From a virus, in the IMG/VR virus record IMGVR_UViG_3300025162_000114, positions 1 through 34,639 of that record: a DNA stretch of 34,639 nt; one strand, written 5' to 3'. The notes below the pieces were generated by a model, which did not search any database, had not been told where the DNA came from, and saw nothing but the letters and a program-made list of their open reading frames with translations. Below, in pieces: positions 1,839-21,845 of this stretch. A program made the translations under genes and the position numbers. How positions within the stretch are numbered: position 1 is the first letter of the stretch; each line of letters opens with the position of its first letter.

Positions 1839-2100
1839 TTATAAAATCCTCAACGTCTTCTTTTGATCTTAGAATATGAACCGGAAAACCTTGTTCACCC
1901 AGCTCGTCGAATACGAGCACTTGTCTTGGACTTATTACTCCCGTTTCCGTTTTTAGTTCTACGAGGTACACTTTTTGGTTTAGAAACACTATTCGATCCG
2001 GTACCCCCGTCACTGTTGCCACCCATTTGTATGAGCGCCCTGAGAACTTCTTCACGAGTTTTGTCAAGTGTTGTTCTATTGCGCTTTCTAGAATGTGCAC
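1816..2100 (-). CDS. VRR-NUC domain nuclease
   Basis: A compact nuclease of the PD-(D/E)XK superfamily, VRR-NUC type. In phages these are stand-alone proteins next to SNF2 helicases and are thought to cut branched DNA. The sequence shows the N-terminal E-x-x-I/L helix (ESAIEQHLTKLV), then GVPDRIVF, VYLVELKTE and the helix SPRQVLVFDEL, which together supply the D...ExK catalytic residues. I chose GTG at 2100 because AACGGAGG lies 9 nt upstream; ATG codons at 2109 and 2154 are also in frame, but the first is only just past the Shine-Dalgarno. The 5' part overlaps the preceding zincin-like gene by 206 nt, and the 3' end overlaps the HNH start. Confidence 0.85.
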   Translation of the reverse strand: MHILESAIEQHLTKLVKKFSGRSYKWVATVTGVPDRIVFLNQKVYLVELKTETGVISPRQVLVFDELGEQGFPVHILRSKEDVEDFINGATKDR

Positions 2101-2548: not shown

Positions 2549-2657
2549 GTGTGGGGATACCGTTTTTAAATATGGTATCCCAATTACTGTTAAACTGCTC
2601 TTCAGGTATTGTTAAAGGACGTTTAGTATCCCCTTTACCGCCGTCATGCTGTGTCAT
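2487..2657 (-). CDS. Small hypothetical protein, 56 aa
   Basis: An ATG at 2657 opens a 56-residue frame (MTQHDGGKGDTKRPLT...) that ends inside the next gene. The start overlaps the upstream stop as ATGA. The C-terminal half (about residues 20-50) is charged and looks helical (EELEKQRDDEIRA). There is no signal peptide or membrane segment. I do not recognise it. It is supported by its tight fit in the gene chain and by filling an otherwise empty gap. Confidence 0.55.
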   Translation of the reverse strand: MTQHDGGKGDTKRPLTIPEEQFNSNWDTIFKNGIPTLEELEKQRDDEIRATIPFGK

Positions 2658-2908
2658 TTCTTTAATCCTTTGCGTAATTCATGGCTGTGTAACTTCTTGC
2701 CGGGATCTTTAACTTCACCAGCAGCTTTCGCTATTTTAGCAGCTTTTTTACGATTTGCAATAGTTCCGTCAGAAAGCACAAACTCATGCTTGCCCTTCTT
2801 GCCTGTTTGGGCAATAATATCATCGTGGCTTTCCTTAACAGACTTAGCTTTGTCTACTTTGCCGGACTTCTCTACTATTGCCGGCTTAACTACTTTTAGT
2901 TTGCTCAT
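2654..2908 (-). CDS. Basic hypothetical protein, 84 aa
   Basis: Starts at the ATG at 2908, with AAAGGAAAAG just upstream; the frame is open to 2941 but that extension lies inside the upstream gene. The product is very Lys-rich, with a central KHEFVLSDGTIANRKKAAK stretch and several KxxK patterns. A basic, nucleic-acid-binding protein is plausible but not shown. The start overlaps the upstream stop (ATGA) and the stop overlaps the next start. Confidence 0.6.
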   Translation of the reverse strand: MSKLKVVKPAIVEKSGKVDKAKSVKESHDDIIAQTGKKGKHEFVLSDGTIANRKKAAKIAKAAGEVKDPGKKLHSHELRKGLKK

Positions 2909-3087
2909 TTCTTTTCCTTTTGTTGTACGTGCCAGTGGCACAGTTGTTTGTAGTACTGCAGATCAATCTCGTACTGTATTGCCTTCTTGTCGTAGATTGC
3001 CTTTTGCTCTTCTAAATCTTTGTCTTTGGGGCGCATAACAAGCCCGATCATAAAGCCTATTATAAACGCCAGTCCAATCTCAGTCAT
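2905..3087 (-). CDS. Small membrane protein with helical tail, 60 aa
   Basis: From ATG 3087 the protein has one hydrophobic segment (about residues 4-18, IGLAFIIGFMIGLVM), then a long charged region (KDKDLEEQKAIYDKKAIQYEID) likely to be helical or coiled coil. That topology, a short N-terminal anchor and a helical body, also occurs in inner-membrane spanins, but nothing else here suggests lysis genes, so the function stays open. It overlaps the genes on both sides by a few bases. Confidence 0.6.
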   Translation of the reverse strand: MTEIGLAFIIGFMIGLVMRPKDKDLEEQKAIYDKKAIQYEIDLQYYKQLCHWHVQQKEKK

Positions 3088-3199
3088 TTCTGTGGTGCCT
3101 ATCGTTAGGGTTGGCCAGCATGCTGGCAATAAGCTCGTCGGTGGTCTGGAACCACTGGATAGCTTTGAGGCCGTCTGCTTGGTAGATGGTGAAGCTCAT
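3080..3199 (-). CDS. Micro-protein, 39 aa
   Basis: An ATG at 3199 opens a 39-residue frame (MSFTIYQADGLKAIQWF...). It overlaps the stop of the upstream membrane-protein gene (ATGA) and the start of the next gene. It is soluble-looking with one likely helix. No family is recognised. The coupled start/stop on both sides is the main support. Confidence 0.45.
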   Translation of the reverse strand: MSFTIYQADGLKAIQWFQTTDELIASMLANPNDRHHRND

Positions 3200-3333
3200 T
3201 TGTTCATTGCCTGTAAAACTCCCGTAAGGATTGCAAACAATGCCTCACCAACAATGACACCCCAAAATACAGTAAAATAAATTGACGGCGCATCAAAATG
3301 ATCTAATAAAAAATAAGTTAAAAAGTAAATCAT
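3196..3333 (-). CDS. Small integral membrane protein, 45 aa
   Basis: The ATG at 3333 follows a strong Shine-Dalgarno (AGGAGAATAAA). The product is mostly hydrophobic: residues about 2-11 (IYFLTYFLLD) and 18-41 (TVFWGVIVGEALFAILTGVL) form one or two membrane segments, and the C-terminus is short and polar. A holin-like role is conceivable from size and topology, but there is no endolysin nearby, so I leave it as a membrane protein. Confidence 0.55.
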   Translation of the reverse strand: MIYFLTYFLLDHFDAPSIYFTVFWGVIVGEALFAILTGVLQAMNK

Positions 3334-3602
3334 TTTATTCTCCTATTCCGTGGGTGTGTTTTTAATGCCGTATTTATCTGGGTGCTCAAAGCAATCAACA
3401 ATGTCTCTAATTTCCCAATCAGCCAATTCGCCTTTCCATGACCCGTTGGTATGTTTTAGTCTGATAGACGCCAACAATACCTTTCCGTAATAAATTGGTA
3501 AATCAATTACTGGTGCCTCTTTAGTGTCTTGTAGATTAAATACTTTAAATGCTTTTTCTGCTAGTTCAATTGGTGTCATTTTTATTCTCCTATTCCGTGG
3601 GC
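3334..3602. repeat. Duplicated gene junction carrying a Shine-Dalgarno
   Basis: Two copies of a ~25-bp junction, at about 3334-3356 and 3580-3602, share TTATTCTCCTATTCCGTGGG on the plus strand. On the coding strand each contains the end of one gene (CCCACGGAATAG), the ribosome site GGAGAATAA and the next ATG. The copies differ at only a few bases, although the genes they join are unrelated. Confidence 0.6.
3343..3579 (-). CDS. Hypothetical protein, 78 aa
   Basis: ATG 3579 is preceded by GGAGAATAAAA. The protein starts MTPIELAEKAF and has a middle beta-like section (PIYYGKVLLASIRLKH), then ADWEIRDIVDCFEHPDKYG. It is soluble and slightly acidic, with no recognised family. Its stop and the following ribosome site form one copy of the duplicated junction. 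Confidence 0.6.
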   Translation of the reverse strand: MTPIELAEKAFKVFNLQDTKEAPVIDLPIYYGKVLLASIRLKHTNGSWKGELADWEIRDIVDCFEHPDKYGIKNTPTE

Positions 3603-3770
3603 GCGTTCGATGGCGCGCACAATGTCAATCAATCCCAAAATGTTTATATCTGCTGCGGCGGGATGTTGCCCACTACACAAAATCATTTGATGGGTAAAGT
3701 AACCAACTTCGTCATCAGTCAACGGTTCACGTTGCGCGTCTTGCCGGTCTTGTGTGGTGAATGTGGTCAT
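3582..3770 (-). CDS. Hypothetical protein, 62 aa
   Basis: ATG 3770 overlaps the upstream stop as ATGA. The protein has a Gln/Arg/Asp-rich N-terminus (TTQDRQDAQREPLTDDE) and a helical C-terminus (ILGLIDIVRAIERAHGIGE). The LTDDEV segment resembles the LTDEEI element of the neighbouring 99- and 101-aa proteins, so it may be a diverged relative. Function unknown. Confidence 0.6.
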   Translation of the reverse strand: MTTFTTQDRQDAQREPLTDDEVGYFTHQMILCSGQHPAAADINILGLIDIVRAIERAHGIGE

Positions 3771-3922
3771 AGTAATTGTGCCTTTTTTCCTTCGTAAAAC
3801 TCCAATAACGCATTAGCAAAAATCACAGGAAAATCTGCATCAGCACCGGCTCTGAGTAACCCCTCTGCAACACCGCTTTGGTGCAAATAAATGTTGTGTA
3901 TTTCTTCGTTTGTTAGTTTCAT
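3767..3922 (-). CDS. Micro-protein, 51 aa, LTNEEI family
   Basis: ATG 3922 follows the repeated AAAGGCACAAGAGAA ribosome site. The product begins MKLTNEEIHNIYLHQ and ends FANALLEFYEGKKAQLL. Its opening matches the LTDEEI motif and its end parallels the FARAILRKAQEK tail of the next genes. It therefore looks like the shared C-terminal module existing as a protein of its own. No biochemical role is known to me. Confidence 0.55.
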   Translation of the reverse strand: MKLTNEEIHNIYLHQSGVAEGLLRAGADADFPVIFANALLEFYEGKKAQLL

Positions 3923-4218
3923 TTCTCTTGTGCCTTTCTTAGTATTGCTCTAGCAAATGCTGGTGCGTTCAATTCGCCTTTCATTGTTGAATATGCTTTA
4001 GCCAGCCAATTTATTTCCTCATCTGTTAGTTCTTTTACTGGATGGGTGCTAGGCTTAATGCGGTATTCAACTTCATCCTCTTGCCATAAATCTGGATGGT
4101 TATCTTTGGTCATTAAATAAAAACCATCTGTTCTGTGTTTAAATTTCCATTCAATTTCAGCACCATCAGCCCAAGCCTTAATTAGTTCTGCGTGTTTATG
4201 TGGTTTCATTGTTTCCAT
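3919..4218 (-). CDS. Hypothetical protein with LTDEEI/FARAI C-terminal module, 99 aa
   Basis: The N-terminal half (residues about 5-50) is a compact alpha/beta region, HAELIKAWADGAEIEWKF then DLWQEDEVEYRIKP. It is followed by KELTDEEINWLAKAYSTMKG and a final FARAILRKAQEK. The LTDEEI...FARAI module recurs at 4847-5152 behind a different N-terminus and, in my recollection, is common in phage hypotheticals. ATG codons at 4218 and 4209 are both possible; the second overlaps the upstream stop. The W-x-D-G-x-x-I-E-W pattern resembles small phage proteins that take a DNA- or RNA-derived name only by homology, so no function is assigned. Confidence 0.65.
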   Translation of the reverse strand: METMKPHKHAELIKAWADGAEIEWKFKHRTDGFYLMTKDNHPDLWQEDEVEYRIKPSTHPVKELTDEEINWLAKAYSTMKGELNAPAFARAILRKAQEK

Positions 4219-4385
4219 CCTGCGTTAGAAATAAAGTCTTCATACATTGCACATTGCTTTTTCAACACTTCGATTTCAGCTTGCATAGCATCAACATCTT
4301 CTTGAACATAAATTTTCATCCATCTTTCACCTGTGAATAGTTCATAATCATCTATGTCGTAATTAAATCTTATTTGCATATTCAT
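4206..4385 (-). CDS. Small hypothetical protein, 59 aa
   Basis: ATG 4385 sits behind GGAGCAAGAGAA, the diverged form of the junction repeat. The product (MNMQIRFNYDIDDY...) has an N-terminal beta-like part, a helix containing DAMQAEIEVLKKQC that could form a coiled coil, and ends NAGWKQ. The stop overlaps the start of the next gene (ATGA). No family recognised. Confidence 0.55.
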   Translation of the reverse strand: MNMQIRFNYDIDDYELFTGERWMKIYVQEDVDAMQAEIEVLKKQCAMYEDFISNAGWKQ

Positions 4386-4549
4386 TTCTCTTGCTCCTCT
4401 TTTGTTGGTCTTGCTTCATACTCACGGTAGTGCTTTGTACATAAAACTCCATAAGCAATAGCTGGCTCACACTCTCTTGTCTCTGTATCCCACTCACAAA
4501 ATATGCCAAAGTTTGAGTGTTCTACTTTGCACCCACAAGTAAGTATCAT
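4382..4549 (-). CDS. Cys-rich small protein, possible zinc ribbon, 55 aa
   Basis: The ATG at 4549 lies directly behind the repeated ribosome site, so it is preferred over the open extension to 4579, which lies in the preceding gene. Five cysteines (TCGCKVEH near the start, FCEW, RECE and LCTKHY) suggest a small metal-binding fold. The tail ends KEEQEK, a diverged version of the RKAQEK end of its neighbours. Role unknown. Confidence 0.6.
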   Translation of the reverse strand: MILTCGCKVEHSNFGIFCEWDTETRECEPAIAYGVLCTKHYREYEARPTKEEQEK

Positions 4550-4680
4550 TTCTCTTGTGCCTTTCTTTCCCATCGCCATTTACGGACATAGCCATCTACC
4601 CATTGAAAATACAACATTACTAAAGCACCCAATATAAAAAATACCATTAACGCAGCAAACGCTATTAAGTTCCAGTTCAT
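4546..4680 (-). CDS. Single-span membrane micro-protein ending RKAQEK, 44 aa
   Basis: ATG 4680 follows the repeated ribosome site. Residues about 5-25 (LIAFAALMVFFILGALVMLYF) form a membrane helix, followed by a basic tryptophan-containing tail (VRKWRWERKAQEK). The last six residues are the shared junction tail. The N-in/C-in positive-tail pattern suggests an inner-membrane protein. Function unknown. Confidence 0.55.
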   Translation of the reverse strand: MNWNLIAFAALMVFFILGALVMLYFQWVDGYVRKWRWERKAQEK

Positions 4681-4850
4681 TTCTCTTGTGCCTTTCTTAA
4701 TAAAAGCGTGTTTACCGCATCGCTGATTGACAAAAGAAATTCTATTTTGTCCATTTCTTCTATTTGCCTTTCCGCCCAGCCTTCACCAAGTTCATGCTTG
4801 TTTTGTTGGTCAATGTAATGCTCCATAACAATGTCGTAAACAGTATTCAT
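4677..4850 (-). CDS. Small acidic protein ending LRKAQEK, 57 aa
   Basis: ATG 4850 follows a copy of the junction ribosome site (CACAGGAGAA variant). The product (MNTVYDIVMEHYIDQQ...) looks all-helical with an acidic middle (ERQIEEMDKIEF) and ends LLLRKAQEK. Its stop overlaps the following ATG. It belongs to the run of tail-sharing genes and has no recognised domain. Confidence 0.55.
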   Translation of the reverse strand: MNTVYDIVMEHYIDQQNKHELGEGWAERQIEEMDKIEFLLSISDAVNTLLLRKAQEK

Positions 4851-5152
4851 TTCTCCTGTGCCTTTCTTAGTATTGCTCTAGCAAATAGTGGTAGCTCGGC
4901 ATTTAAACAAACAACGGCAGGGTGAGTTTCGTTCCAGCACTCTAGTATTTCCTCATCTGTTAGTTCTTTTACTGGATTGGTATTAGGCTTTCTACCATCT
5001 TCAACACCATTGTCATAAGCCCTAATTTTTCCTGCTTTCAACGCCTCGATTTCAGCTTGTTGCTGGCGTAGCACAGAAGCAATTAGACTTAGTGATCCAC
5101 CATTTTCGGTGTACTGCGTTTCAATATCATCAGCTAGTTCATTTGCGTTCAT
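4847..5152 (-). CDS. Hypothetical protein with LTDEEI/FARAI C-terminal module, 101 aa
   Basis: The N-terminal 45 residues are helical with a coiled-coil-like stretch (LRQQQAEIEALKAGKI). They are followed by NPVKELTDEEILECWNE and the ending FARAILRKAQEK. The C-terminal ~45 residues match the protein at 3919-4218 in both protein and DNA, while the N-termini are unrelated, so this is a domain-swapped pair. ATG 5152 is embedded in the end of the upstream membrane-protein gene. Confidence 0.65.
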   Translation of the reverse strand: MNANELADDIETQYTENGGSLSLIASVLRQQQAEIEALKAGKIRAYDNGVEDGRKPNTNPVKELTDEEILECWNETHPAVVCLNAELPLFARAILRKAQEK

Positions 5153-5318
5153 TTTTAATAACCTGTATTAAAGTTGTTGTTGTTATTGAAGTTGGTACAT
5201 AAATAAAATATAAGAACCACATTAGTTCCGTGGCTTTGACAATGGTTAGTACACTATAGAGCAGGTATAACCAAATTGATAACGTCAGTAGTGTTAGTAC
5301 AACAATAGTTGCTTTCAT
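5139..5318 (-). CDS. Two-span membrane micro-protein, 59 aa
   Basis: ATG 5318 has a strong ribosome site (AAGGAGATACT). Residues about 4-24 (TIVVLTLLTLSIWLYLLYSVL) and 31-41 (MWFLYFIYV) are hydrophobic, giving one or two membrane spans, followed by a Thr-rich loop and a basic end (IKNERK). It overlaps both neighbours by a few codons. Function unknown. Confidence 0.55.
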   Translation of the reverse strand: MKATIVVLTLLTLSIWLYLLYSVLTIVKATELMWFLYFIYVPTSITTTTLIQVIKNERK

Positions 5319-9122: not shown

Positions 9123-9320
9123 TTAGGCATTTGAGAGGATAATATCGGCTACTTCCTTGGTAATGGGGGTGCACTCGGCTACTGGAACCCATTCCTTTCG
9201 CATGCGGTATTCACCCATCCAGCCTTTTTCCTTAAACTCTACCCTGACATTTTCAGCGTTAAAAGAGGCATTATTGATTACTTGACATGCCATATTTTTG
9301 TATAGAACCCACTCTCTCAT
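9123..9320 (-). CDS. ITKEVADI-family small protein, 65 aa
   Basis: The first of eight related small proteins. The N-terminal ~50 residues are beta-strand-like and Trp/Tyr-rich (MREWVLYKNMACQVIN ... GWMGEYRMRKEWVPV). The end is CTPITKEVADIILSNA, the shared C-terminal helix motif. ATG 9320 overlaps the upstream stop (ATGA). The variable beta body plus constant tail suggests a common partner or fate for the family, which is inference. No enzyme motif. Confidence 0.65.
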   Translation of the reverse strand: MREWVLYKNMACQVINNASFNAENVRVEFKEKGWMGEYRMRKEWVPVAECTPITKEVADIILSNA

Positions 9321-9544
9321 GCCACACTCATCATAATGTCAGCTACCTCATCAGTGATTTCAGTTAGCTCTTCTGGGTTAAAGACGTACACAACAAGGTC
9401 AGTAACCTCGTCATTTTGTCTAGCTATTACGCATCTCATTATTTCAGTATCCCCCTCAACGCGCCTTTTAGGTAGGATTCTAAATAGGGTGTGTTGCGGT
9501 GCATCATAATTAACGTGGTATTCGTTTAAAGTGGCATACTTCAT
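9317..9544 (-). CDS. ITKEVADI-family small protein, 75 aa
   Basis: The product begins MKYATLNEYHVNYDAPQHT and ends LTEITDEVADIMMSVA. The body has alternating hydrophobic strands (TLFRILPKRR, MRCVIARQ, DLVVYVFNPEE), consistent with a small beta-barrel. Its start overlaps the upstream stop and its stop overlaps the next start. Function unknown; membership of the family rests on the final ~12 residues. Confidence 0.65.
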   Translation of the reverse strand: MKYATLNEYHVNYDAPQHTLFRILPKRRVEGDTEIMRCVIARQNDEVTDLVVYVFNPEELTEITDEVADIMMSVA

Positions 9545-9759
9545 GGATACCTCATAATATCAGCTACTTCTTTGGTAATCACTGTGGCGTCATTGGAAGA
9601 TACAGTAAAGACTTCATACTTATTAAAGGACTCAATGTTCTTTTTTGGTGTTAGGGTTTTTTGGACTTCTGCCCTTATTACTAAATTTAACCCATCATTA
9701 TAGACTGTAACCACTTCGCCGACCCTGTCAGTCCAGATAACAAAATCTCCTGGCTTCAT
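9541..9759 (-). CDS. ITKEVADI-family small protein with SH3-like body, 72 aa
   Basis: MKPGDFVIWTDRVGEVVTVY is an SH3/KOW-like opening: 'x-x-G-D-F-V' then 'G-x-V-x-x-V'. It is followed by LNLVIRAEVQK and the conserved end ATVITKEVADIMRYP. This is the clearest beta-barrel body in the family. Such barrels bind nucleic acid or proteins; which applies here is not visible. Confidence 0.7.
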   Translation of the reverse strand: MKPGDFVIWTDRVGEVVTVYNDGLNLVIRAEVQKTLTPKKNIESFNKYEVFTVSSNDATVITKEVADIMRYP

Positions 9760-9953
9760 AGCATAACTTCAAAATCTAGGCGCTTAATCATTTTGTATGA
9801 CCACTCCCTGAACTGCTCTCGGTTATCGCTAGTTTGCTCATCGTTATCATCCCAATTAGACTGGATTTCAAAGTCCCCTGTCAGATTGTGGAAATCAATA
9901 CGGATTAGATTACCGTCCTTATCATATACATCGGTTGGTATAACTTTAGTCAT
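9756..9953 (-). CDS. Hypothetical protein, 65 aa
   Basis: The protein begins MTKVIPTDVYDKDGNLIRIDF and has an acidic middle (NWDDNDEQTSDNREQF) and a basic end (YKMIKRLDFEVML). It lacks the ITKEVADI tail although it lies in the same chain, overlapping the next ATG. Its start is preceded by AGAAAGAGAAACA. No family recognised. Confidence 0.6.
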   Translation of the reverse strand: MTKVIPTDVYDKDGNLIRIDFHNLTGDFEIQSNWDDNDEQTSDNREQFREWSYKMIKRLDFEVML

Positions 9954-9970
9954 TGTTTCTCTTTCTAGTG

Positions 9971-10014
9971 TTTATAGGCGGGTCCGACGAATTTTTTTAT
10001 AGGCGGGTCCGACA
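9971..10014. repeat. Short direct repeat at the 3' end of a gene
   Basis: TTTATAGGCGGGTCCGAC occurs at 9971-9988 and again at 9996-10013. The second copy encodes the C-terminal end and stop of the 109-aa gene, and the first is a non-coding duplicate just downstream. It looks like a small slippage or recombination scar. Confidence 0.6.
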
Positions 10015-10326
10015 CAATTCTTTAACTTTGCTTGGTTTTTCATCCCAATTATCAGGTGTGCCGTAATCTCCACGACTTGACCTCATTCGCTCGGCTTCTC
10101 GGGATTTTGGCTCTACTTCAAGCCATTGTTTAAACGCTTCCACATATTCTAAATACTCGTCGTTGATGACATACAGGGGGTGGTTTAAACTCGCTACATC
10201 TACTGTATGAGAAATGACCGAAGCGCGTACCCACTTTTTGTTGCGCTTGTAAATTCTGTCCCGCGCTATAATAAATCGGTTGTAAGCCCTTGTTTGCTCG
10301 GGTGTAAATTCAATCGTCTTGCTCAT
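9997..10326 (-). CDS. Hypothetical protein, 109 aa, downstream of sigma
   Basis: The protein begins MSKTIEFTPEQTRAYNRFI and has a basic region (RDRIYKRNKKWVRASV), then HPLYVINDEYLEYVEAFKQW and an Arg-rich acidic tail. Its start lies inside the end of the sigma gene, so they are co-translated. I compared it with sigma region 4 because the sigma protein lacks one, but there is no helix-turn-helix of that type. It carries two GTTTAAAC sites. Function unknown; a sigma partner is a guess from position only. Confidence 0.6.
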   Translation of the reverse strand: MSKTIEFTPEQTRAYNRFIIARDRIYKRNKKWVRASVISHTVDVASLNHPLYVINDEYLEYVEAFKQWLEVEPKSREAERMRSSRGDYGTPDNWDEKPSKVKELCRTRL

Positions 10327-10879
10327 CGCTAAATCTCTCTGTGTTTAAATGGTCGATTGAAATTGGTTCTCTTGTCATAAAAGACTGCAACTGGGCTAGT
10401 TTGCGTTCACTAATACCCATAATTTTTGCTAACTCTGCGGGTTTGGGTTTGCGCCCTAGAATTTGGGACAATGCTCTGTCGTTGTAGTTTAGTTTTTTGA
10501 GGGCTTCGACTACATTCATGGGTAGACGAATGATATTGGATAGGTTGTCCAGTTCTCTACGAACACCCTTTTCAATAAACGACTTGGCATAGGTGGCAAA
10601 CTTAGCATTGTTTTTTGGCTTCCACTTCTTAGCGCACAGTAATAACTGCTCATTACCAAGTGCCACGATATCCTCGGCGGGCATCTTGCCATGATTCCAA
10701 TAGGTCATCTTACGCACAATATAAACAACAAAACGCAAATTATGGGTAACTAGCTTGTCAAGGGCTTCGTCATCTCCTTGCGCTATTCGCTTAGCCAATG
10801 CGTGTTCTTGCTCTGTTGTCAGGGGTTCAATCCCGTATAGGGACTGCAAGTAATCACTAAGTATATCGTTATCAATCAT
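10310..10879 (-). CDS. Sigma-70-like factor lacking region 4
   Basis: A 189-residue protein directing RNA polymerase, probably to phage promoters. Region 1.2/2.1 is seen as LTTEQEHALAKRIAQGDDEA then LVTHNLRFVVYIVRKM; region 2.3-2.4 as FATYAKSFIEKGVRRELDN. A region-3-like helix-turn-helix stretch follows (KPKPAELAKIMGISERKLAQL). The protein then ends, so the -35-reading region 4 is absent, as in T4 gp55-type late sigma factors, which are about this size. ATG 10879 puts region 1.2 at its usual place; the open extension to 10948 is unneeded. The start lies directly after a strong hairpin, suggesting translational control. Confidence 0.85.
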   Translation of the reverse strand: MIDNDILSDYLQSLYGIEPLTTEQEHALAKRIAQGDDEALDKLVTHNLRFVVYIVRKMTYWNHGKMPAEDIVALGNEQLLLCAKKWKPKNNAKFATYAKSFIEKGVRRELDNLSNIIRLPMNVVEALKKLNYNDRALSQILGRKPKPAELAKIMGISERKLAQLQSFMTREPISIDHLNTERFSDEQDD

Positions 10880-10907
10880 CGGGGTTCTATTTGTGGTTAG
10901 AACCCCG
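10880..10907 (-). promoter_or_regulatory. Hairpin abutting the sigma-factor start codon
   Basis: A perfect 10-bp inverted repeat (CGGGGTTCTA / TAGAACCCCG, 8-nt loop) ends exactly one base before the ATG of the sigma gene. In the leftward mRNA the start would sit at the foot of this stem, and no other Shine-Dalgarno is visible. It could block translation or, as DNA, be an operator. There is no T-run, so it is not a standard terminator. Confidence 0.6.
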
Positions 10908-10923
10908 ATTATACCATACTCGC

Positions 10924-11079
10924 CTATTTCTGCCCCAAAATGGTGCAAATACTCGATTTAACGAATTTGGGGTCGCATAAAACTAAACCCACCATAAACC
11001 ACACTAACTTAAATATGGTGAATTCCTCAAGCAAACCCCATCCCACAAATATTACAATGTATGCTCCTACATAGTTCAC
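10924..11079 (-). CDS. Small membrane protein with GTG start, 51 aa
   Basis: GTG at 11079 is preceded by GGGGAGG at a 7-nt spacing, which decides the start. Residues about 3-16 (YVGAYIVIFVGWGL) and 21-35 (IFKLVWFMVGLVLC) are hydrophobic, giving two membrane segments with a short EEF turn, then a polar end. The gene overlaps the upstream stop and ends just before the sigma start region. No family recognised. Confidence 0.55.
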   Translation of the reverse strand: MNYVGAYIVIFVGWGLLEEFTIFKLVWFMVGLVLCDPKFVKSSICTILGQK

Positions 11080-11192
11080 ATTGTAGCCTCCCCAAGTAGT
11101 TTAAACGCATCCAGAAATGTTAGTTTCTTGATTCTCTTTCGCTTCGGTTCTTGCCACACAACTGCGCCGAAATCGTCATACTTAATCTTCAT
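11076..11192 (-). CDS. Basic micro-protein, 38 aa
   Basis: ATG 11192 overlaps the end of the preceding gene. The product (MKIKYDDFGAVVWQEPKRKR...) has a basic patch and a helix TFLDAFKLLGEATM. The codons for A-F-K-L contain one GTTTAAAC. Support comes from the tight start/stop overlaps; function unknown. Confidence 0.45.
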   Translation of the reverse strand: MKIKYDDFGAVVWQEPKRKRIKKLTFLDAFKLLGEATM

Positions 11193-11413
11193 GTTATTGC
11201 TAGCACGATATCGGCTACCTCTTTGGTTATTTGGGTGCAAGTTCTAATCTTGTCAGCGAACATATTAGAGGGGATTGGTTCTCGCCTAATACCTACATAC
11301 TCTATGTTATACAAATCGTAATGGTAATTTTTTGCTTTATTAGCATTTATTCCTAAAACTTGGAACACCACATCGCCATCCACATACCACGCACCCGATT
11401 TAATCTTCGCCAT
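11189..11413 (-). CDS. ITKEVADI-family small protein, 74 aa
   Basis: The chosen start is the ATG at 11413 (MAKIKSGAWYVDGDVVFQVL), because the frame before it overlaps another small gene. The body 'K-x-G-A-W-Y-V-D-G-D-V-V-F-Q-V' reads as a small beta-barrel like its relatives. The end is CTQITKEVADIVLAIT. It lies apart from the 9.1-9.8 kb trio, which shows that the family is spread through the island. Confidence 0.65.
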   Translation of the reverse strand: MAKIKSGAWYVDGDVVFQVLGINANKAKNYHYDLYNIEYVGIRREPIPSNMFADKIRTCTQITKEVADIVLAIT

Positions 11414-11543
11414 TTTCGTCGCCGCCGATAAATGTTTCCTCGCCGCGGTCAAAACTTAACTCCTCCATGATTTTGAGTTTATACATATAGGACTTGGTGT
11501 CCTCATACTCCTCATCATCTTTAAAATAATCTCTATTAGGCAT
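11400..11543 (-). CDS. Acidic micro-protein, 47 aa
   Basis: ATG 11543 opens MPNRDYFKDDEEYEDTK..., a strongly acidic chain with a central helix (MYKLKIMEELSF) and ending GGDENGED. The end overlaps the next gene start. No family recognised. High acidity and small size are features also found in DNA-mimic proteins, but nothing specific supports that. Confidence 0.5.
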   Translation of the reverse strand: MPNRDYFKDDEEYEDTKSYMYKLKIMEELSFDRGEETFIGGDENGED

Positions 11544-11757
11544 ATCTAGCACTCCTTATAATGTCGGATACTTCTTTGGTTACGGGTGATACTTTTGCGG
11601 TTGATGACATGGACTTCATATACGGCTTACCTGTTTGGTCAATCCATATCACTTCAAAACTTCTCGGGGGCTTCTCATTAAAATCTAGCCACTCAGGTAG
11701 GTCAGCATACCCCACCATATCCCGTTCATTGGTTACATAAGTTTTACGCATCGTCAA
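11536..11757 (-). CDS. ITKEVADI-family small protein, 73 aa
   Basis: The body (YADLPEWLDFNEKPPRSFEVI then WIDQTGKPYMKSMSS) is followed by SPVTKEVSDIIRSARYA, a variant of the family tail. GGAGGGA lies 8 nt before TTG 11757 and 14 nt before ATG 11751, so the TTG may be the true start; they differ by two residues. The start overlaps the upstream gene's end. Confidence 0.6.
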   Translation of the reverse strand: MTMRKTYVTNERDMVGYADLPEWLDFNEKPPRSFEVIWIDQTGKPYMKSMSSTAKVSPVTKEVSDIIRSARYA

Positions 11758-11977
11758 TTTTGTATCCCTCCATAATGTCGGCTACTTCGTTGGTTACTGG
11801 AATAAGTCTGCTCTGACTGATCGTAAACCTATTCCTTGTGTCCTTAATATTCACTCGCACCATGTCGAATGAATACCTCTCATACTTACTCAATACTGCG
11901 ACACAACACAACTTACCCCGATACTTTGGGTGTATGTCCGTATCTTCAGGTATCAAGTAATATTGCTTTTCTGTCAT
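11744..11977 (-). CDS. ITKEVADI-family small protein, 77 aa
   Basis: Starts at ATG 11977 (MTEKQYYLIPEDTDIHPKY), overlapping the upstream stop (ATGA). The middle shows strands LCCVAVLSKYERYSFDMVRV, and the end is LIPVTNEVADIMEGYKIDDA, so the motif is followed by eight extra residues. Probably a small beta-barrel with the family helix. Function unknown. Confidence 0.65.
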   Translation of the reverse strand: MTEKQYYLIPEDTDIHPKYRGKLCCVAVLSKYERYSFDMVRVNIKDTRNRFTISQSRLIPVTNEVADIMEGYKIDDA

Positions 11978-12795
11978 GTCATCACCCAATAGCAAGACTT
12001 ACTGTTCTTTAACCCCACATCTTCTATAAACTGCTTCTCGTCTGTGATATCTAACACAAACATTTTACCTCGAATATGCTCGGGCAAGTCGTTTAAACTC
12101 GCTACTACATTGGGTTCTTTACTGTCTTTTGCTACCCATTCCACGCTATTGGGTTTAATCCACACAAAACAATACTCGGGGTTGTAGTTAGCGTATCGGT
12201 CAATGTTCTCTTTGTGCTTGGCTAAGTATTCCATCGCTTGTGAAAACTTCTCACACTTGGGTTTGTAGCCTGATTCGTGTAGGTAAATCATATCCTCGTA
12301 ACCTAAACTAAATGCGTGGTTTGTATGATGATCTACATTCCATCCCCACTTATTGCGTAACCCCTGTATCTCTTGTTCAAACTCCCGCTTGTGAGTACCT
12401 ATCACTTGGAATATAGATAATGGCTTTAAGGTTTTCTTGGCGATCTTAATGATGTTCTTTACATTGATAGATTGCTTATATTGCCCTAAGTTAGAGTAAT
12501 TCCTCCTACCATCGTTAATATTTTTATTAGAGATGGAATACTTCTTACCATACTTTTCTATATCAACTACCCCGATTATTTGGTGTGGGTCGGTTGTATC
12601 ATAGATATCTAATCTGTGAAATACACCATGCGGTTTGCACTCCTCGGGTATGTTGTAGTTCAGCTTATTGTCCCCGCCCTTATATACTAGGCTAAGGTTG
12701 TCCTTTAGCATAGCCTCGCATAGGTCAATCAATCGGGTATCTACAAACTGCTCACCCGCATAGGGGGCATAGGTTACTTTTAAATCATCGCTCAT
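11974..12795 (-). CDS. Unrecognised protein, 273 aa
   Basis: ATG 12795 has AAGGAGAAAATA just upstream and is preferred to the open extension. The chain opens MSDDLKVTYAPYAGEQFVDT and contains DPHQIIGVVDIEKYGKKYSI, NVKNIIKIAKKTLKPLSIFQ, GWNVDHHTNHAFSLGYEDMI and a C-terminal QFIEDVGLKNSKSCYWVMT. It looks like a globular alpha/beta protein with no membrane segment. I see no known catalytic motif. It follows the equally unrecognised 330-aa gene at an 11-nt spacing, so the two are probably made together. Confidence 0.7.
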   Translation of the reverse strand: MSDDLKVTYAPYAGEQFVDTRLIDLCEAMLKDNLSLVYKGGDNKLNYNIPEECKPHGVFHRLDIYDTTDPHQIIGVVDIEKYGKKYSISNKNINDGRRNYSNLGQYKQSINVKNIIKIAKKTLKPLSIFQVIGTHKREFEQEIQGLRNKWGWNVDHHTNHAFSLGYEDMIYLHESGYKPKCEKFSQAMEYLAKHKENIDRYANYNPEYCFVWIKPNSVEWVAKDSKEPNVVASLNDLPEHIRGKMFVLDITDEKQFIEDVGLKNSKSCYWVMT

Positions 12796-12805
12796 TATTT
12801 TCTCC

Positions 12806-13798
12806 TTAAAACCAAGATTTATATAGGTCTTTACATACTGTGCCAAGGGGGACTTCAATCTGTTTAAATGGCTTAACCAGTTTATAAAGGTCTTTAAACA
12901 ACTTCGCTTTTAGTTTGCTCTTATCGTATTCGGTTTTGCGGATGTGGCTGTATTCGGGCTTGCCGTTCACCAAAACCTTATCGTATAGGAATGAAGTCTT
13001 TTCGATACGATTCTTATAATGCTCGGCAATAGTAAACCAATGCTCAGGTGCGTTTCCATCAACTAGTTTAAACACTTTGTCTTGCGGTATGTCTTTGGTT
13101 GAACAGGCTAATGCGTTTTCCCAATAGCTAAGATACTTAGGCTCTACCATATCCACCATGACATCAAGGTACTCCAATAATGGTTTGGCGGTGGCTCTCC
13201 ACTCTTTAGTTTTGGCTCGATCTAAATTGTGGATTACTTCTCTATGAACCACCATTGGTATCCAGTATTTATTAACCACCTTGCGGGTGAAAGTAATATC
13301 TCCCTTTTCAAGGGTATAGAATTGATAACCTACTTCACAATCTAAGCGAACATACTTAGCCGACTTATGGTTGTGCATAGTCAATCCCACTGGCATATTA
13401 AAATCATAAAAGTAGAAAACAGAGGGGCTACTTAATGCTCTCGGATATAGTTTATCTTCTGCACTCCAATTTGTGCGTGGGGTGTGTACTGTTACTGTTT
13501 CCATCTCACCAGTTAAGTGAAATGAGATTGCCTTAGTGTGTGTTCTATCGGGTTGGTGGATGTCTGACCAGCTATACGCATCAAAGGTAAGATAGTATTG
13601 ATTCTCATTAACTTTAATAATGCGCTCACGGCTTCGATCTCGTTCGCCAATGGGTCGCACATCGAGGTGTTTGCGTTGCTTACTTTGAATTGGCTTGGTG
13701 TTCTCATAGCGTTCTTTGATCTTGGCAAAATCGAATCTGCCTCCGTTGTCCCGTTGCACCTCATAAGGTGTGCGTGAATTGTAATATCCAAAACTCAT
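12806..13798 (-). CDS. Unrecognised protein, 330 aa
   Basis: ATG 13798 overlaps the preceding stop (ATGA). The protein starts MSFGYYNSRTPYEVQRDNGG and has a basic segment (RPIGERDRSRERIIKVNENQ) and beta-rich stretches such as KAISFHLTGEMETVTVHTPR and VRLDCEVGYQFYTLEKGD. A helical, Lys-rich C-terminus follows (KLKAKLFKDLYKLVKPFKQ). No enzyme signature is obvious. It travels with the 273-aa gene and lies in the MoxR/VWA island, so a shared process is possible but unproven. Confidence 0.7.
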   Translation of the reverse strand: MSFGYYNSRTPYEVQRDNGGRFDFAKIKERYENTKPIQSKQRKHLDVRPIGERDRSRERIIKVNENQYYLTFDAYSWSDIHQPDRTHTKAISFHLTGEMETVTVHTPRTNWSAEDKLYPRALSSPSVFYFYDFNMPVGLTMHNHKSAKYVRLDCEVGYQFYTLEKGDITFTRKVVNKYWIPMVVHREVIHNLDRAKTKEWRATAKPLLEYLDVMVDMVEPKYLSYWENALACSTKDIPQDKVFKLVDGNAPEHWFTIAEHYKNRIEKTSFLYDKVLVNGKPEYSHIRKTEYDKSKLKAKLFKDLYKLVKPFKQIEVPLGTVCKDLYKSWF

Positions 13799-14061
13799 TT
13801 GTTTAACTCCTCTAAAAGTTTTTTGCGTGATTTACTCAACTCCTCCTCCAACACCATCAATGCCTGATCTGCTATTGATTGTGGTGTAAGTAGTGTGGTG
13901 CGTTGGTCGTGTTTGACTATGCCCGAACGAATCTCGGCTACCTCTTTGCTTGTCCATACACTATCCACCCATTGTGGTGAGTAATCCCTCTCGGCTTGCT
14001 GAATATTGCCTGATTGTAGGACTACCCAATCGCCCTTTTTTATAGCGTGTGTATCACTCAT
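13795..14061 (-). CDS. SH3-like small protein related to the ITKEVADI family, 88 aa
   Basis: The N-terminus IKKGDWVVLQSGNIQQAERD is the SH3/KOW-like 'K-x-G-D-W-V' opening. SVWTSKEVAEIRSGIVKHD is a diverged family motif, here internal rather than terminal. It is followed by a helical extension (LMVLEEELSKSRKKLLEELN) that could be a coiled coil. It is thus an extended member of the family. Function unknown. Confidence 0.65.
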   Translation of the reverse strand: MSDTHAIKKGDWVVLQSGNIQQAERDYSPQWVDSVWTSKEVAEIRSGIVKHDQRTTLLTPQSIADQALMVLEEELSKSRKKLLEELNK

Positions 14062-14063
14062 TC

Positions 14064-14330
14064 TTAATACTCCCTGTTCCTGTTTTCTCGTTGAACACTT
14101 GCTTGGATAATCGCCACTTCCTCGGTGGTGAATGTTGCAAACAGTTCATCCCTATATACCCTTAAAGGTCGGTTCTGATAACCACCATCATCCCTTAATG
14201 TTTTCCATATAACCCACACCACATCTATGGCATTAGCTCGCCTGTTGGGGTATCTGTAAATCACCTCGGTAATCTGACCATAATCACCTAAGAAATCAAC
14301 TACCCACCATCCTACTTTTAATCTGACCAT
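14064..14330 (-). CDS. SH3-like small protein related to the ITKEVADI family, 88 aa
   Basis: Starts at ATG 14330 (MVRLKVGWWVVDFLGDYGQI), preceded by GGGGTGTTTAAAC, so a GTTTAAAC copy lies between the G-rich stretch and the start and also holds the upstream stop. The body resembles a small barrel ('L-K-V-G-W-W-V-V-D ... G-Q-I-T-E-V-I'). Near the end FATFTTEEVAIIQASVQ is the most diverged form of the family motif. Confidence 0.65.
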   Translation of the reverse strand: MVRLKVGWWVVDFLGDYGQITEVIYRYPNRRANAIDVVWVIWKTLRDDGGYQNRPLRVYRDELFATFTTEEVAIIQASVQRENRNREY

Positions 14331-14332
14331 GT

Positions 14333-14536
14333 TTAAACACCCCGCCCAATATCTTGGGTGGCTTCCCATGCTACCCACACTTCGGGGTATGCGGTTTTAA
14401 CCCAGTAAGCAAACCTAAGCCAATGCTGATTTTCCTCTGCCATTCTTGTAGCAGAGTAGTCATACTGCCTTTGCTCGTTAGTCATACTGAATTGTTTAAA
14501 CATATCATAAACTAATCTAAACTCATCGGGTGTCAT
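14333..14536 (-). CDS. AYPE-family small protein, 67 aa
   Basis: ATG 14536 (MTPDEFRLVYDMFKQF) has AAAGGAGCAATCATT upstream. The chain is helical and aromatic-rich. Its C-terminal part, YWVKTAYPEVWVAWEATQDI, parallels segments in the proteins at 14533-14757 and 15921-16169 (W+...AYPE/D...Y/W.A..DIE). The stop codon lies inside a GTTTAAAC. It has no known domain. Confidence 0.6.
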   Translation of the reverse strand: MTPDEFRLVYDMFKQFSMTNEQRQYDYSATRMAEENQHWLRFAYWVKTAYPEVWVAWEATQDIGRGV

Positions 14537-14757
14537 AATGATTGCTCCTTTGCAAACGCTTCCCATGTTTCAACTAATTTTTTTATTCGGGGGTTGCTTG
14601 ATATATCAGCATCCATAACGGATTCCTCAATATCCTTAACTGCCTCGTATTGGTTGTAAATGTCAGGATATGCTTCTCTTAGCCAATCGGCTAAATAAAT
14701 GCGTCTTGGTTGCGGTTCTGCTCTATTACTCGCTACTTTTTTGGCTACTTTGTGCAT
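14533..14757 (-). CDS. AYPE-family small protein, 74 aa
   Basis: ATG 14757 follows GGAGTAGATA. The N-terminus is basic (MHKVAKKVASNRAEPQPRR). Next is YLADWLREAYPDIYNQYEAV then KDIEESV, the motif shared with two neighbours. The C-terminal helix is RIKKLVETWEAFAKEQ. Probably all-helical. Its stop overlaps the next start (ATGA). Role unknown. Confidence 0.6.
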   Translation of the reverse strand: MHKVAKKVASNRAEPQPRRIYLADWLREAYPDIYNQYEAVKDIEESVMDADISSNPRIKKLVETWEAFAKEQSL

Positions 14758-14760: not shown

Positions 14761-15921
14761 CTACTCCTCAATATGGATAGTCTGACCAATAGGGGAATTG
14801 GTTTCCCTATTATCTACAATGCACCACAAAGTAGGGCAACTCCATTGACCTCCCCAATCGTTGCCTACATAGCCGTCTGTTAAAACAATGGCGCATACAG
14901 GGTCGATCTTATGCTTACGCATATACTTAGTAATGCACGATGGTGTTGTCCCACCTCCCCCTTTAGGTTTGGTAGATGTTCGCATTTTATCGGCTTCGTT
15001 TAAACCATACACCTCATGCCCCGCTACTTCACTATCCCAGTAAATCAAATCCACTTGCTCGGGGTTTACATTCTCCATAATGCTACTCACCTCGGATAAG
15101 AACCGATTGAGAATAGCACCTTGAATAGAACCCGATGTATCAACGGCTACCACAATGCGCCCTGTTGTTTCGCTAATGGTTGAAGGCATATAAATGTCAT
15201 GCTGTAACCATCTGCGGTTTGGTTTGCGCCATGTGCAATCATCTTTACCAGCGCATACTGCCGAAATGAATTCACGCAAGGCATCTTTCCAGTTCACCTT
15301 AGCCGACATAAGATCATCAAACGATCTGTTTAAACTGCCTCCCACTTTGCCCGCTAGAATTGCACCTTGACGAATGGCTTGGTCAATCTCGCTTGCCAAC
15401 TCCTCGGCTTCCTCTGCGCTCATCTCCTCTGCACCATCCCAATCATGCTCATCAAACTGCCCACCTCCGCTACCATCATTTTCGGGTGGGTCAGGTAATA
15501 GATGGAACACTTGACCACTATCCATGCCTTTGTATTTGGCATCAATAAGGCATCCTTTAGGTAGGGTTACGAATTGGTTTGATCGCTCGCCCTCATCCAT
15601 GATCTCCAAGTTAATCACATAATCGCAGGCATAGTTCGCCTTTGTGTGGTTGATCTTAGATAAGTGTTTCCATGTCAGTAAGTGCCTATACATTTTGTGC
15701 TTGGCTTCGTGGATGATTACACCCCGTAAGTCTGAATCGGATAAGCCCTCGACAAATTTGCGCCCGTAATAAACATTCTTACCATTGGTGCAAGCCGTTC
15801 TCACATTGTCTTTGATCTTAACTTCCCCGATCATCAAAATACCTGAATAGGCTACAAACTGCGGGGACTTCATTAGGTCAATGTGCGCCCGTTCAATGCG
15901 TTGCTCTGCGGTTAGTGCCAT
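14761..15921 (-). CDS. VWA-domain protein with N-terminal metallopeptidase-like domain (MoxR partner)
   Basis: The N-terminal half holds GVIIHEAKHKMYRHL (about residue 70), a HExxH motif, as in the putative metallopeptidase plus VWA-like family. A flexible Gly/Asp/Glu-rich linker (about 145-185) follows. The C-terminal half is a VWA fold with a MIDAS motif (VVAVDTSGSIQ, about 265), GGGGTTP and VLTDGYVG. Proteins of this layout work with MoxR AAA+ ATPases as chaperone-like pairs that insert metals or remodel complexes; the ATPase is two small genes upstream, at 16547. The phage target is unknown. The start ATG 15921 shares its last base region with the upstream stop. Confidence 0.85.
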   Translation of the reverse strand: MALTAEQRIERAHIDLMKSPQFVAYSGILMIGEVKIKDNVRTACTNGKNVYYGRKFVEGLSDSDLRGVIIHEAKHKMYRHLLTWKHLSKINHTKANYACDYVINLEIMDEGERSNQFVTLPKGCLIDAKYKGMDSGQVFHLLPDPPENDGSGGGQFDEHDWDGAEEMSAEEAEELASEIDQAIRQGAILAGKVGGSLNRSFDDLMSAKVNWKDALREFISAVCAGKDDCTWRKPNRRWLQHDIYMPSTISETTGRIVVAVDTSGSIQGAILNRFLSEVSSIMENVNPEQVDLIYWDSEVAGHEVYGLNEADKMRTSTKPKGGGGTTPSCITKYMRKHKIDPVCAIVLTDGYVGNDWGGQWSCPTLWCIVDNRETNSPIGQTIHIEE

Positions 15922-16169
15922 TATATTTTCCTTTCGACATCTTTAACTGCTTTATATCGTGCCTCTGCTATGCACACAAGTTCAGGGTATGCGTTACTAA
16001 CCCAGTCATAAAACTTCATAACCTCTCGGGCTTCGTATGCTTCATCTGCAAGGGCTTCGTTCTCATATTTTAATTGCTTGATCTCGGCTTCTGCTTCCTC
16101 TAATTGCTCCTCAATCTCTGCTATTGCATCCGATACTTTACCCGTGTTTATTACACCCCTCTTTAGCAC
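15921..16169 (-). CDS. Coiled-coil AYPE-family protein with GTG start, 82 aa
   Basis: The start is GTG 16169 (GGGGATTAAATC upstream), overlapping the preceding stop. Residues about 12-50 form a clear coiled coil (AIAEIEEQLEEAEAEIKQLK, continuing to the EAREV segment). The end, YDWVSNAYPELVCIAEARY then KAVKDVERKI, carries the AYPE motif. It lies between the MoxR and VWA genes, so it may be an adaptor in that complex; this is inferred from position. Confidence 0.6.
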   Translation of the reverse strand: MLKRGVINTGKVSDAIAEIEEQLEEAEAEIKQLKYENEALADEAYEAREVMKFYDWVSNAYPELVCIAEARYKAVKDVERKI

Positions 16170-17805: not shown

Positions 17806-17901
17806 CTACTGATAACTAGGAATATACAGATCAGGGGCAAATAAAAATATAAGTAATAACCCTAATAACAAAATGGTGCAATATAGGTCATCTTTGGACA
17901 T
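17806..17901 (-). CDS. Membrane micro-protein, 31 aa
   Basis: ATG 17901 has GGGGAG upstream with the octamer GTTTAAAC in between. Residues about 8-21 (CTILLLGLLLIFLF) form one membrane helix; the ends are polar (MSKDDL and PDLYIPSYQ). It overlaps the end of the upstream 57-aa gene. Very short, so support is moderate. Confidence 0.4.
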   Translation of the reverse strand: MSKDDLYCTILLLGLLLIFLFAPDLYIPSYQ

Positions 17902-18061
17902 CGTTTAAACACTCCCCTAAATGTTTGGTGTTGGTGATCGTGGTTGAATGGGTATCAGGGAAACGAATCGTAGCCCATTCACCCGATATATCGACTATTT
18001 CGACCTCATCAAACCCGCACCATATAGCCCGATCACCTTGCTTAAAGTATTCGTTAATCAT
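17888..18061 (-). CDS. SH3-like small protein, 57 aa
   Basis: MINEYFKQGDRAIWCGFDEV has the 'F-K-Q-G-D-R-A' barrel opening seen in the ITKEVADI group, then VEIVDISGEWATIRFPD and TTITNTKHLGECLNDVQR. It lacks the clear ITKEVADI tail but has the same body type. The start overlaps the upstream stop (ATGA). The C-L-N codons contain a GTTTAAAC that also serves the next start. Confidence 0.55.
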   Translation of the reverse strand: MINEYFKQGDRAIWCGFDEVEIVDISGEWATIRFPDTHSTTITNTKHLGECLNDVQR

Positions 18062-20583: not shown

Positions 20584-20884
20584 GACTAAGTATGCCTACC
20601 AAATCCAAGGCGCATTGGAAAATGCGGAAGGAAAATTTTGTGGTTTTCGGGTATTGGTAGGTAACGCGGACTTTTTAGATATTGCCGATGTTCCAGCTGA
20701 GGTGTTTCCAAAAGAAACGGCTAAGTACATCGAGTTTAGATTAAAAGTCACCGAAAGGTTTGATGTTAGGAAGCTACCTCCCACAGTGGAGAATAGCATT
20801 AGAGCGCCGCTAGGGCGCTGGTTAGATAGATGGGTACTTAACAACTTTGGCAATATTAGCAAACCAAAAAATACTAACGCTTGA
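20582..20884 (+). CDS. Hypothetical protein, 100 aa, first rightward gene
   Basis: The protein begins MTKYAYQIQGALENAEGKFC and continues FRVLVGNADFLDIADVPAEV, then IRAPLGRWLDRWVLNNFGN near the end. It is a soluble alpha/beta protein of no recognised family. It heads the terminase unit behind a late-type promoter with no visible ribosome site. Its position before terL is where a small terminase often sits, but there is no helix-turn-helix to support that. Its last 38 nt overlap the Hint gene. Confidence 0.65.
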   Translation: MTKYAYQIQGALENAEGKFCGFRVLVGNADFLDIADVPAEVFPKETAKYIEFRLKVTERFDVRKLPPTVENSIRAPLGRWLDRWVLNNFGNISKPKNTNA

Positions 20885-21845
20885 CTATTGGAAGACAGCC
20901 CACGACCTAAGAGTTGGGGATTACGTATTTGACAAAGAGGGCAACCTTCAAAAAGTAACCTTGGTCCAAGAATATCGAGCCACAGATTGCTACCAAGTTT
21001 ACTTTAACGACCACCTTACTGTGGCCGGCGATATGCACCTTGGATTTCAGATTGAGGACCAACGGTACCGCAACCGCCTAAACCAATACAAAGGTAAGTT
21101 TAAATTCAAGCGCCCGTTAAAGTTTCGTAAGGTTCAAGACCTTCCGACTGACAACCTAAAGCAAAACAATGGGGGCCATGCGTTTTCCATACCCACCACC
21201 AAGCCCCTACAGTTTCCCCACCAGACCCTACCGGTCCCTTCCTTTATATTCGGCTATTGGTTCTTCACACACGAAACCCGTAACCGTAGGATGCACTTCT
21301 CTAAAGGAAACCATGATTTTCTAACTGATGTCTTTAAGGGTGCCGGGTACAGCATCATTGAGCGTGGTAAACATTCAAATGGAGAACGGTACTTTTCTGT
21401 ACACCCAACCATTGAGTCACACCTATCGTTTGACTTACCGCACCGCATTCCAAACAACTACCTGCTTTCTTCTTCTGAACAGCGATTGGAATTGCTCAAA
21501 GGTATCTTGTGCGCCAAACCCAAGACCTACTCCAAGAAAACCGGTCTATTCCGGTTCTCTACCCAGCATCTACCAATTGTCCAACAGATACAATCTTTAG
21601 TGGAATCACTAGGGCACAAAACAATCCTGGAAGTAAACGAACAGCGTAAAAGCTATATACTTATTTTCAGATCTAAGTTACAATTAGTAAATAACCAAAT
21701 ACCACACCCAAAACCTTTAGTACATCAAGGACGTAGGTATATCACAGCAATTTCCAAGTTGCCGCCGCAATTGTGTGTTCACATTGAAACCGAAGGAGCT
21801 GATAATAGTTACCTGGTCGGAGAAGGATTTATAGCCGTATGCTAA
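20847..21845 (+). CDS. Free-standing intein-like Hint protein with decayed homing endonuclease
   Basis: The order of intein blocks is intact: N-terminal KILTLDYWKTAHDLRVGDYV (block A), HLTVAGDMHL (block B, about 60), an endonuclease-like part with FGYWFFTHETRN (about 134) and RLELLKGILCAKPKTY (about 212), then CVHIETEGADNSYLVGEGFI (blocks F/G). Key residues are gone: no Cys/Ser before block A, both endonuclease Asp positions replaced (usual LGDG and DTDG become FFTHE and LCAKP), and the final His-Asn replaced by VC and a stop. So neither splicing nor DNA cutting is expected. The start is probably TTG 20847, with no ATG available. Its stop overlaps the TerL ATG. Confidence 0.8.
   Translation: MAILANQKILTLDYWKTAHDLRVGDYVFDKEGNLQKVTLVQEYRATDCYQVYFNDHLTVAGDMHLGFQIEDQRYRNRLNQYKGKFKFKRPLKFRKVQDLPTDNLKQNNGGHAFSIPTTKPLQFPHQTLPVPSFIFGYWFFTHETRNRRMHFSKGNHDFLTDVFKGAGYSIIERGKHSNGERYFSVHPTIESHLSFDLPHRIPNNYLLSSSEQRLELLKGILCAKPKTYSKKTGLFRFSTQHLPIVQQIQSLVESLGHKTILEVNEQRKSYILIFRSKLQLVNNQIPHPKPLVHQGRRYITAISKLPPQLCVHIETEGADNSYLVGEGFIAVC

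Follow-up and report, generated by a model that had tools for sequence, protein, structure and literature searches.

Genes of the tail family in the window

The DNA considered here, referred to as the window, is the whole of a 34.6-kb uncultured virus record (IMGVR_UViG_3300025162_000114). Several small genes of this window, all on the minus strand, encode proteins with strongly differing bodies and a constant C-terminal tail, ITKEVADI. Results described below indicate that these genes very probably form an array of exchangeable cassettes, with the DNA encoding the tail as the seam between them. Genes are named by their lower window coordinate (Table 1), and L-numbered names denote related contigs that were compared with the window.

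Membership of the ITKEVADI-tail family is defined here by a C-terminal tail near the stop codon together with E <1e-3 against a held-out profile. This profile, which contains 46 members that are all from other contigs, was run against the 335 open reading frames (ORFs) of the window and recovers 9123, 9317, 9541, 11189, 11536, and 11744 (E 1.3e-6 to 4.7e-18), all of which carry the tail near the stop; besides these six, no window ORF has E <0.1. The six members score 20–34 bits with a tail-only profile, compared with a top score of 6.0 among 20x shuffled ORFs, and a degenerate TxEVxDI DNA pattern has 6 matches in the window versus 0 in 100 shuffles.

The original prediction, which was made from the sequence of the window, counted eight neighbors with the motif. 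Six of these stand, and 13795 (E 0.12) and 14064 (E 0.62) fall outside the family. The TSKEVAEI of 13795 lies mid-protein (residues 37–44 of 88) and the related contigs gave no relative, and this candidate was rejected. Because a relative of 14064, L007:1176 (E 0.003; 26% identity), has a C-terminal TKEVAMIHASV, 14064 may be a distant member at best. The G-D-x-V opening that was noted for several bodies does occur in several, and is lacking in 9123, 9317, 11536, and 11744. It was reasonable to describe 17888 as a body without a tail, as this protein appears SH3-like by eye, has no tail, and has no notable family match.

Table 1. Tail-family genes and associated features of the window.
Feature	Coordinates	Strand	Basis or remark
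Tail-family gene, body type G, 65 amino acids, MREWVLY...	9123..9320	-	Held-out profile, E 2.6e-15
Tail of 9123, ITKEVADIILSNA	9126-9164	-	Last gene of second array; tail without Shine-Dalgarno
Tail-family gene, body type H, 75 amino acids, tail ITDEVADIMMSVA	9317..9544	-	Held-out profile, E 3.1e-9
Tail-family gene, body type A2, 72 amino acids, MKPGDFVIW..., tail ITKEVADIMRYP	9541..9759	-	Held-out profile, E 4.7e-18; predicted structure
Sigma-70-like factor, after first array in relatives	10310..10882	-	Pfam Sigma70 r1.2, r2, r3; synteny
Tail-family gene, body type K, 74 amino acids from ATG 11413, tail ITKEVADIVLAIT	11189..11413	-	Held-out profile, E 1.3e-6
Tail-family gene, body type C, 71 amino acids from ATG 11751, DLPEWLDFNEKPPRSF, tail VTKEVSDIIRSARYA	11536..11751	-	Held-out profile, E 5.7e-16; predicted structure
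Tail-family gene, body type I, 77 amino acids from ATG 11977, tail VTNEVADIMEGYKIDDA	11744..11977	-	Held-out profile, E 6.9e-11
Conserved 276-amino acid flank gene, precedes first array in relatives	11974..12804	-	Synteny; no Pfam or PHROG family
Possible distant relative, GWWVVD... TTEEVAIIQASV	14064..14330	-	E alone not significant
Small SH3-like body without tail, upstream of AAA ATPase gene	17888..18061	-	

Distribution and gene order

A search for the tail in other phages had been proposed, and scans of IMG/VR identified approximately two dozen phage contigs that carry one to seven tail genes each, for a total of approximately 50 distinct proteins. In the pattern scan, short barrel-like proteins have TKEVADI 4–10 residues before the C-terminus; its other occurrences are scattered over unrelated proteins. 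The cassettes are found mostly at two fixed early loci, one between the 276-amino acid gene and the sigma factor and the other directly before the primase. The gene order is kept as AAA ATPase, DUF2201/VWA, 330-amino acid gene, 276-amino acid gene, one to four cassettes, small genes, and sigma factor, followed by two small genes, zero to three cassettes, and primase. In the distant phages L086, L091, and L040, a tailed cassette is located immediately upstream of the ATPase.

Body types A, A2, B, C, D, E, F, G, H, I, J, K, and L occur in varying combinations at the same locus. Gene 9123 has relatives in two contigs (L007:6443 and L089:13418). The 11189 cassette does not appear on the locus map of either sister contig, L007 or L030. 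A body-anchored scan for type C returned five C bodies, one of them in a new contig and all tailed, together with two chance matches; within this narrow scan no tail-less C body was seen. Searches of named phages gave no match to the 9541 protein or to the 330- or 276-amino acid flank genes, and no relative was found in bacterial genomes. Matches in Pfam and PHROG are at chance level (e.g., Bubble, DUF6832, YajC, MreC), and a PDB sequence search gave no credible match.

The genes of 64 or 115–118 amino acids located after the cassettes and ahead of the sigma factor were considered as further cassettes and rejected, as they have no tail. A tail-less 64-amino acid gene (MVITVFFENESPSHAD...) is situated inside or right after the cassette row in two contigs (L117:3804-3998 and L064:6299-6493), where it may be a different type of cargo carried at these seams.

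Predicted fold of the tail proteins

AlphaFold structures were predicted for 11536 (type C) and 9541 (type A2), whose bodies differ greatly. The 11536 model has a predicted local distance difference test (pLDDT) score of 91, with strands at residues 2-8, 13-18, 31-37, 43-50, and 54-57 and a helix at 59-70, and the 9541 model (pLDDT 82) has strands at 6-9, 12-20, 25-31, 48-54, and 58-61 and a helix at 63-70. The PDB neighbors of the 9541 model are the NusG and Spt5 KOW domains, NdhS/Ssl0352, and Tudor barrels (Z 7.3 to 3c4s and 7.2 to NusG and Spt5 KOW; root-mean-square deviation 1.1–1.7 over 47–49 residues), while the 11536 model has looser, mixed SH3-like matches (Z up to 5.6). Both predicted models are thus consistent with the five-stranded SH3/KOW/Tudor topology, as was anticipated when these proteins were described as small SH3/KOW-like barrels. 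The Pfam KOW profile has no match in nine tail/body proteins of the window or in 30 family members, and comparison of body-only profiles shows types A2, A, B, D, E, and G to be weakly similar to one another.

In both models the tail comprises the end of strand five and the C-terminal helix. Because it supplies the last strand and helix of the barrel itself, the tail appears, as modeled, to be built into the fold. This is at odds with the earlier proposal of an added docking or delivery tag, and the accompanying suggestions of delivery and of a different host target for each body are unsupported by the analysis. The observation behind that proposal, a constant helix on strongly varying bodies, is borne out by the C-terminal ITKEVADI helix of all six ORFs.

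Conservation of the tail helix

The constancy of the tail extends to 52 members, in which K is conserved in 48, E in 48, V in 51, A in 46, D in 51, and I in all 52. Variants outside the search strings (IPKEVADI, ITDEVADI, ISEEVADI, IPKSVADI, ITKEIFDI, IDKAVADI, and others) retain V or I as well as the last I, and almost all retain D, while T, K, E, and A vary. Among orthologues the KEVADI codons have accumulated 7 amino-acid versus 59 synonymous changes, compared with 439 versus 344 in the bodies (odds ratio 10.8, p 1e-13, with pairs that are not independent). The tail helix is under strong protein-level purifying selection. On a helical wheel, V, I, and the following M/I/L would fall on one face with the near-invariant K, E, and D opposite, an arrangement that could fit a common partner.

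Among the alternatives, the one that survives best, although it is judged unlikely, is that the tail is purely structural. It would then be the strand and helix with which the members of a single ancient SH3-like family close the barrel, and would complete the core without any common partner. The place of the tail in both models agrees with this explanation, as do two SH3-like proteins with degenerate tails encoded upstream of the AAA gene (L017:5810-6016, ITPLDPAVSSILESI; L030:6168-6377, IEPLDKAVQDLLDSI), in which only the hydrophobic pattern is kept (PLDxAVxxIL). However, K, E, and D are retained opposite V, I, and M at the frequencies given above while the barrel varies freely, and these charges are not required by packing alone.

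Tail DNA and translation of the next gene

The tail DNA has a function that was overlooked in the original prediction, as it doubles as a recombination seam and as the ribosome-binding site of the next gene. Downstream of the helix, most genes continue with MR[SGA]V, TAA, and AC(A)ATG, which places AGGAG or GAGG just before the next start. The Arg codon that forms part of AGGAG/GAGG follows the helix in 34/44 genes with a close downstream start versus 0/5 genes without one (p 0.0016), and these five genes still keep EVADI. Consequently, translation of the neighboring gene explains the end of the tail and does not explain the EVADI helix.

These features raise a second alternative, namely that conservation acts chiefly on the DNA of the tail, for recombination and translation coupling, and that its amino acids are a by-product. 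The Shine-Dalgarno encoded by MR[SGA]V, the tail haplotypes and breakpoints described below, and a strong preference for ACC-AAA-GAA-GTA in the first half of the tail, beyond body codon usage, are all in keeping with it. Set against these are the third positions of A, D, and I, which are near saturation and approximately as variable as codon usage permits, the rarity of amino-acid relative to synonymous changes, and the persistence of EVADI where no gene follows closely. Furthermore, the seam RNA has no Rfam match and folds like its shuffles. As a sole cause, conservation of the nucleic acid is largely refuted and thus improbable; it stands as a second layer of constraint beneath the protein-level selection.

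Cassette exchange at the seam

Evidence that bodies are exchanged comes from the seams themselves. Identical 24-nt tail haplotypes occur across different bodies in 22 pairs, compared with 2.5 expected from codon shuffles (0/1000), and the identity spans the tail, stop, and next start and breaks off at the first base of the tail. A body swap distinguishes L019 from L022. The two contigs share 97.3% identity in the left segment (L019 1-221) and 97.6% in the right segment (420-5194), and between these segments L019 carries a C body (222-419) where L022 has an A body, with breakpoints at the start codon of the next gene and at the beginning of the tail; L082 agrees with the L022 arrangement. Cassette gain or loss at a seam is seen for type H, which in the window is 9317, a gene that overlaps 9123 through ATGA. 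This cassette is present between A2 and G in L007 and absent from L089, where the A2 gene has a hybrid tail made up of IPKEVADI (as in A2) joined to MMSVL (as in H). Overall, 12 of the 125 internal alignment ends coincide with a seam in each of the two contigs, versus 2.3 by random placement (0/2000), placing breakpoints inside short repeated sequences as expected of boundary-sequence recombination. The synonymous codons of A, D, and I also show greater similarity within a genome (0.55 vs 0.41, 7/2000), an effect that the bodies do not share. Gene conversion contributes, and was rejected as a sole cause, as it leaves the amino-acid constancy unexplained.

A third alternative holds that one gene was recently duplicated in tandem and that the bodies then diverged, without exchange between phages. 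It would account for the two to four tandem paralogues per locus and for the weak profile relationships among six of the body types. This alternative is very improbable: the same body types recur at the same locus in different combinations and numbers, and the L019/L022 swap contradicts it unless that contig is chimeric. Recent DNA duplication alone had been named as an outcome that would count against a meaningful motif. This is not what the window contains, because the tail DNA copies of its paralogues are 60–90% alike while their bodies share no DNA similarity, and synonymous changes are abundant under a fixed protein.

Proposed cassette mechanism

Taken together, these findings suggest a cassette that consists of a start codon, a variable body that codes the larger part of a small SH3-like barrel, and a seam of approximately 45 bp. 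The seam codes the end of the last strand and the constant C-terminal helix ITKEVADI, and often also holds the Shine-Dalgarno, the stop, and the spacer that leads to the next start. If seam copies recombine homologously during co-infection, related phages could swap or lose bodies while frame, fold, and translation of the neighbor stay intact. The helix would be constant since it closes the barrel and since its exposed K-E-D face meets one common partner, for which a phage protein, a host protein, and the sister cassettes are candidates. The variable barrel surfaces may act on different targets early in infection, the early timing being suggested by the position of the cassettes next to the sigma factor and primase.

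This statement of cassettes, seam, and common-partner helix, as worded, is assigned a probability of approximately 0.7. Its parts differ in strength: the exchangeable array with its seam is very probable, whereas contact between the helix and a common partner is given somewhat less than even odds. A broader proposal is put forward tentatively, namely a combinatorial system in which small barrel effectors dock via one constant helix to one partner and exchange their bodies at the DNA encoding that helix. If true, each recombinant would automatically be in frame, translated, and correctly docked.

Several points weigh against the proposed mechanism. The contigs were ascertained through the tail motif, which inflates the apparent constancy of the tail, and haplotypes and alignment ends were counted over related contigs, such that the shuffles overstate significance. 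Repeats of approximately 42 nt can give rise to chimeras in metagenome assemblies, and the L019 arrangement was seen once; the L089 hybrid is less exposed to this objection because it has synonymous changes of its own. Exposure of the helix was read from a helical wheel rather than from a measured surface. Finally, profile comparison aligns type C with other types over the tail only and body-only comparison links it to nothing, so that the fold it is proposed to share depends on AlphaFold models for which the alignments were shallow (16 and 30 rows).

A fourth alternative, which is very improbable, is that the helix is a recognition tag for remodeling or degradation by the MoxR-type AAA ATPase and DUF2201 VWA pair of the phage. 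In its favor, both genes are near the cassettes in nearly all contigs reaching that far, a cassette immediately precedes the ATPase in the most distant relatives, and MoxR/VWA pairs such as RavA-ViaA work as chaperone complexes (PMC3893208 and PMC10585395), but the case is one of co-location, and 502 named phages match the DUF2201 gene while none matches the tail protein tested.

Other features of the window

The DUF2201 gene of the window (14761-15921, minus) is labeled "HNH endonuclease" by PHROG 1314 and some phage records, while Pfam identifies a metallopeptidase-like DUF2201_N and a VWA-like DUF2201 domain; the label is likely a naming error that has spread in phage annotation. Common C-terminal modules are also found elsewhere. 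Three neighbors (14333-14566, 14533-14757, and 15921-16169, minus) share the module W[VL]xxAYPxxxxxYEAVKDIE, which L007:1176 seemingly joins to an EVADI-type tail, and a third module, PVKELTDEEI...FARAILRKAQEK, is present on two small proteins with different N-terminal parts (3919-4218 and 4847-5152, minus). A 25-bp unit (TTTATAGGCGGGTCCGACG...) was identified by repeat search as a tandem pair at 9971-10020, at the 3' end of gene 9997. An Intein/HINT-like ORF (20847-21845, plus; MAILANQKILTLDYWKTAHDLRVGDYVFDKEG) with no Pfam match at 0.01 is located immediately before the large terminase at 21839, and HNH/endonuclease VII-like ORFs, possibly homing endonucleases, are situated amid phage genes at 1215-1838, 23388-23762, and 30806-31273.

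Comparison with known systems

Uncharacterized small SH3-like phage proteins in BFVD (DUF1642, UBE2O-like SH3-B) belong to the same barrel class as the tail proteins, as Foldseek assigns them a probability close to 1 when searched with the A2 model, but no E-value is <0.01 and there is no sequence family match. The T4 early proteins MotB and MotB.1 (Tevenvirinae) have a common C-terminal part and different N-terminal parts (PMC7827196). MotB has a predicted N-terminal KOW (SH3-like) domain, and its constant part is a predicted OB fold (approximately residues 69-149) that may bind DNA (PMC7827196). Both systems thus involve neighboring early phage genes with a conserved C-terminal and a variable N-terminal part. 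They differ in that the constant part of MotB is a predicted OB fold, while that of the tail family is a strand end and a helix of approximately 12 residues and the barrel is variable. No PHROG or Pfam family links the tail proteins to MotB/MotB.1, and a direct comparison was not made.

A second comparison concerns the PeSLs, which are reportedly mobile regulatory cassettes of T4-type phages (work attributed to Arbiol, 2010, and Comeau, 2014). As cited in passages of PMC3797505 and PMC4503421, the PeSLs of T4 are non-coding shuffling elements. Like the seams, they are reportedly repeated elements at the boundaries of small genes that are tied to modular shuffling of accessory genes. In contrast to these promoter/stem-loop elements, the seams are coding and have no stem-loop and no excess of terminators or promoters, and an early promoter with a stem-loop terminator between genes, as would mark a PeSL, is not seen at them.

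A further precedent is boundary-sequence recombination, an old model for phage mosaics that is seldom visible (PMC3029335). In that model, as is proposed for the seams, homologous recombination exchanges modules at short repeated boundaries. Rapid exchange of small early phage genes of unknown function is often credited to illegitimate recombination, whereas here an exchange seam is visible inside coding sequence, an arrangement that would preserve the frame, the fold, and the ribosome-binding site and probably a surface for binding as well. The old model thereby becomes testable through defined junctions, and the constant helix offers a handle for fishing out a putative common partner of many unknown early proteins. 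Unlike the boundary sequences of mosaic phages, the seams lie inside genes, code for a selected helix, and recur at every cassette of an array; what is new is the combination, in one boundary sequence, of coding function, selection at the protein level, and repetition with each cassette.

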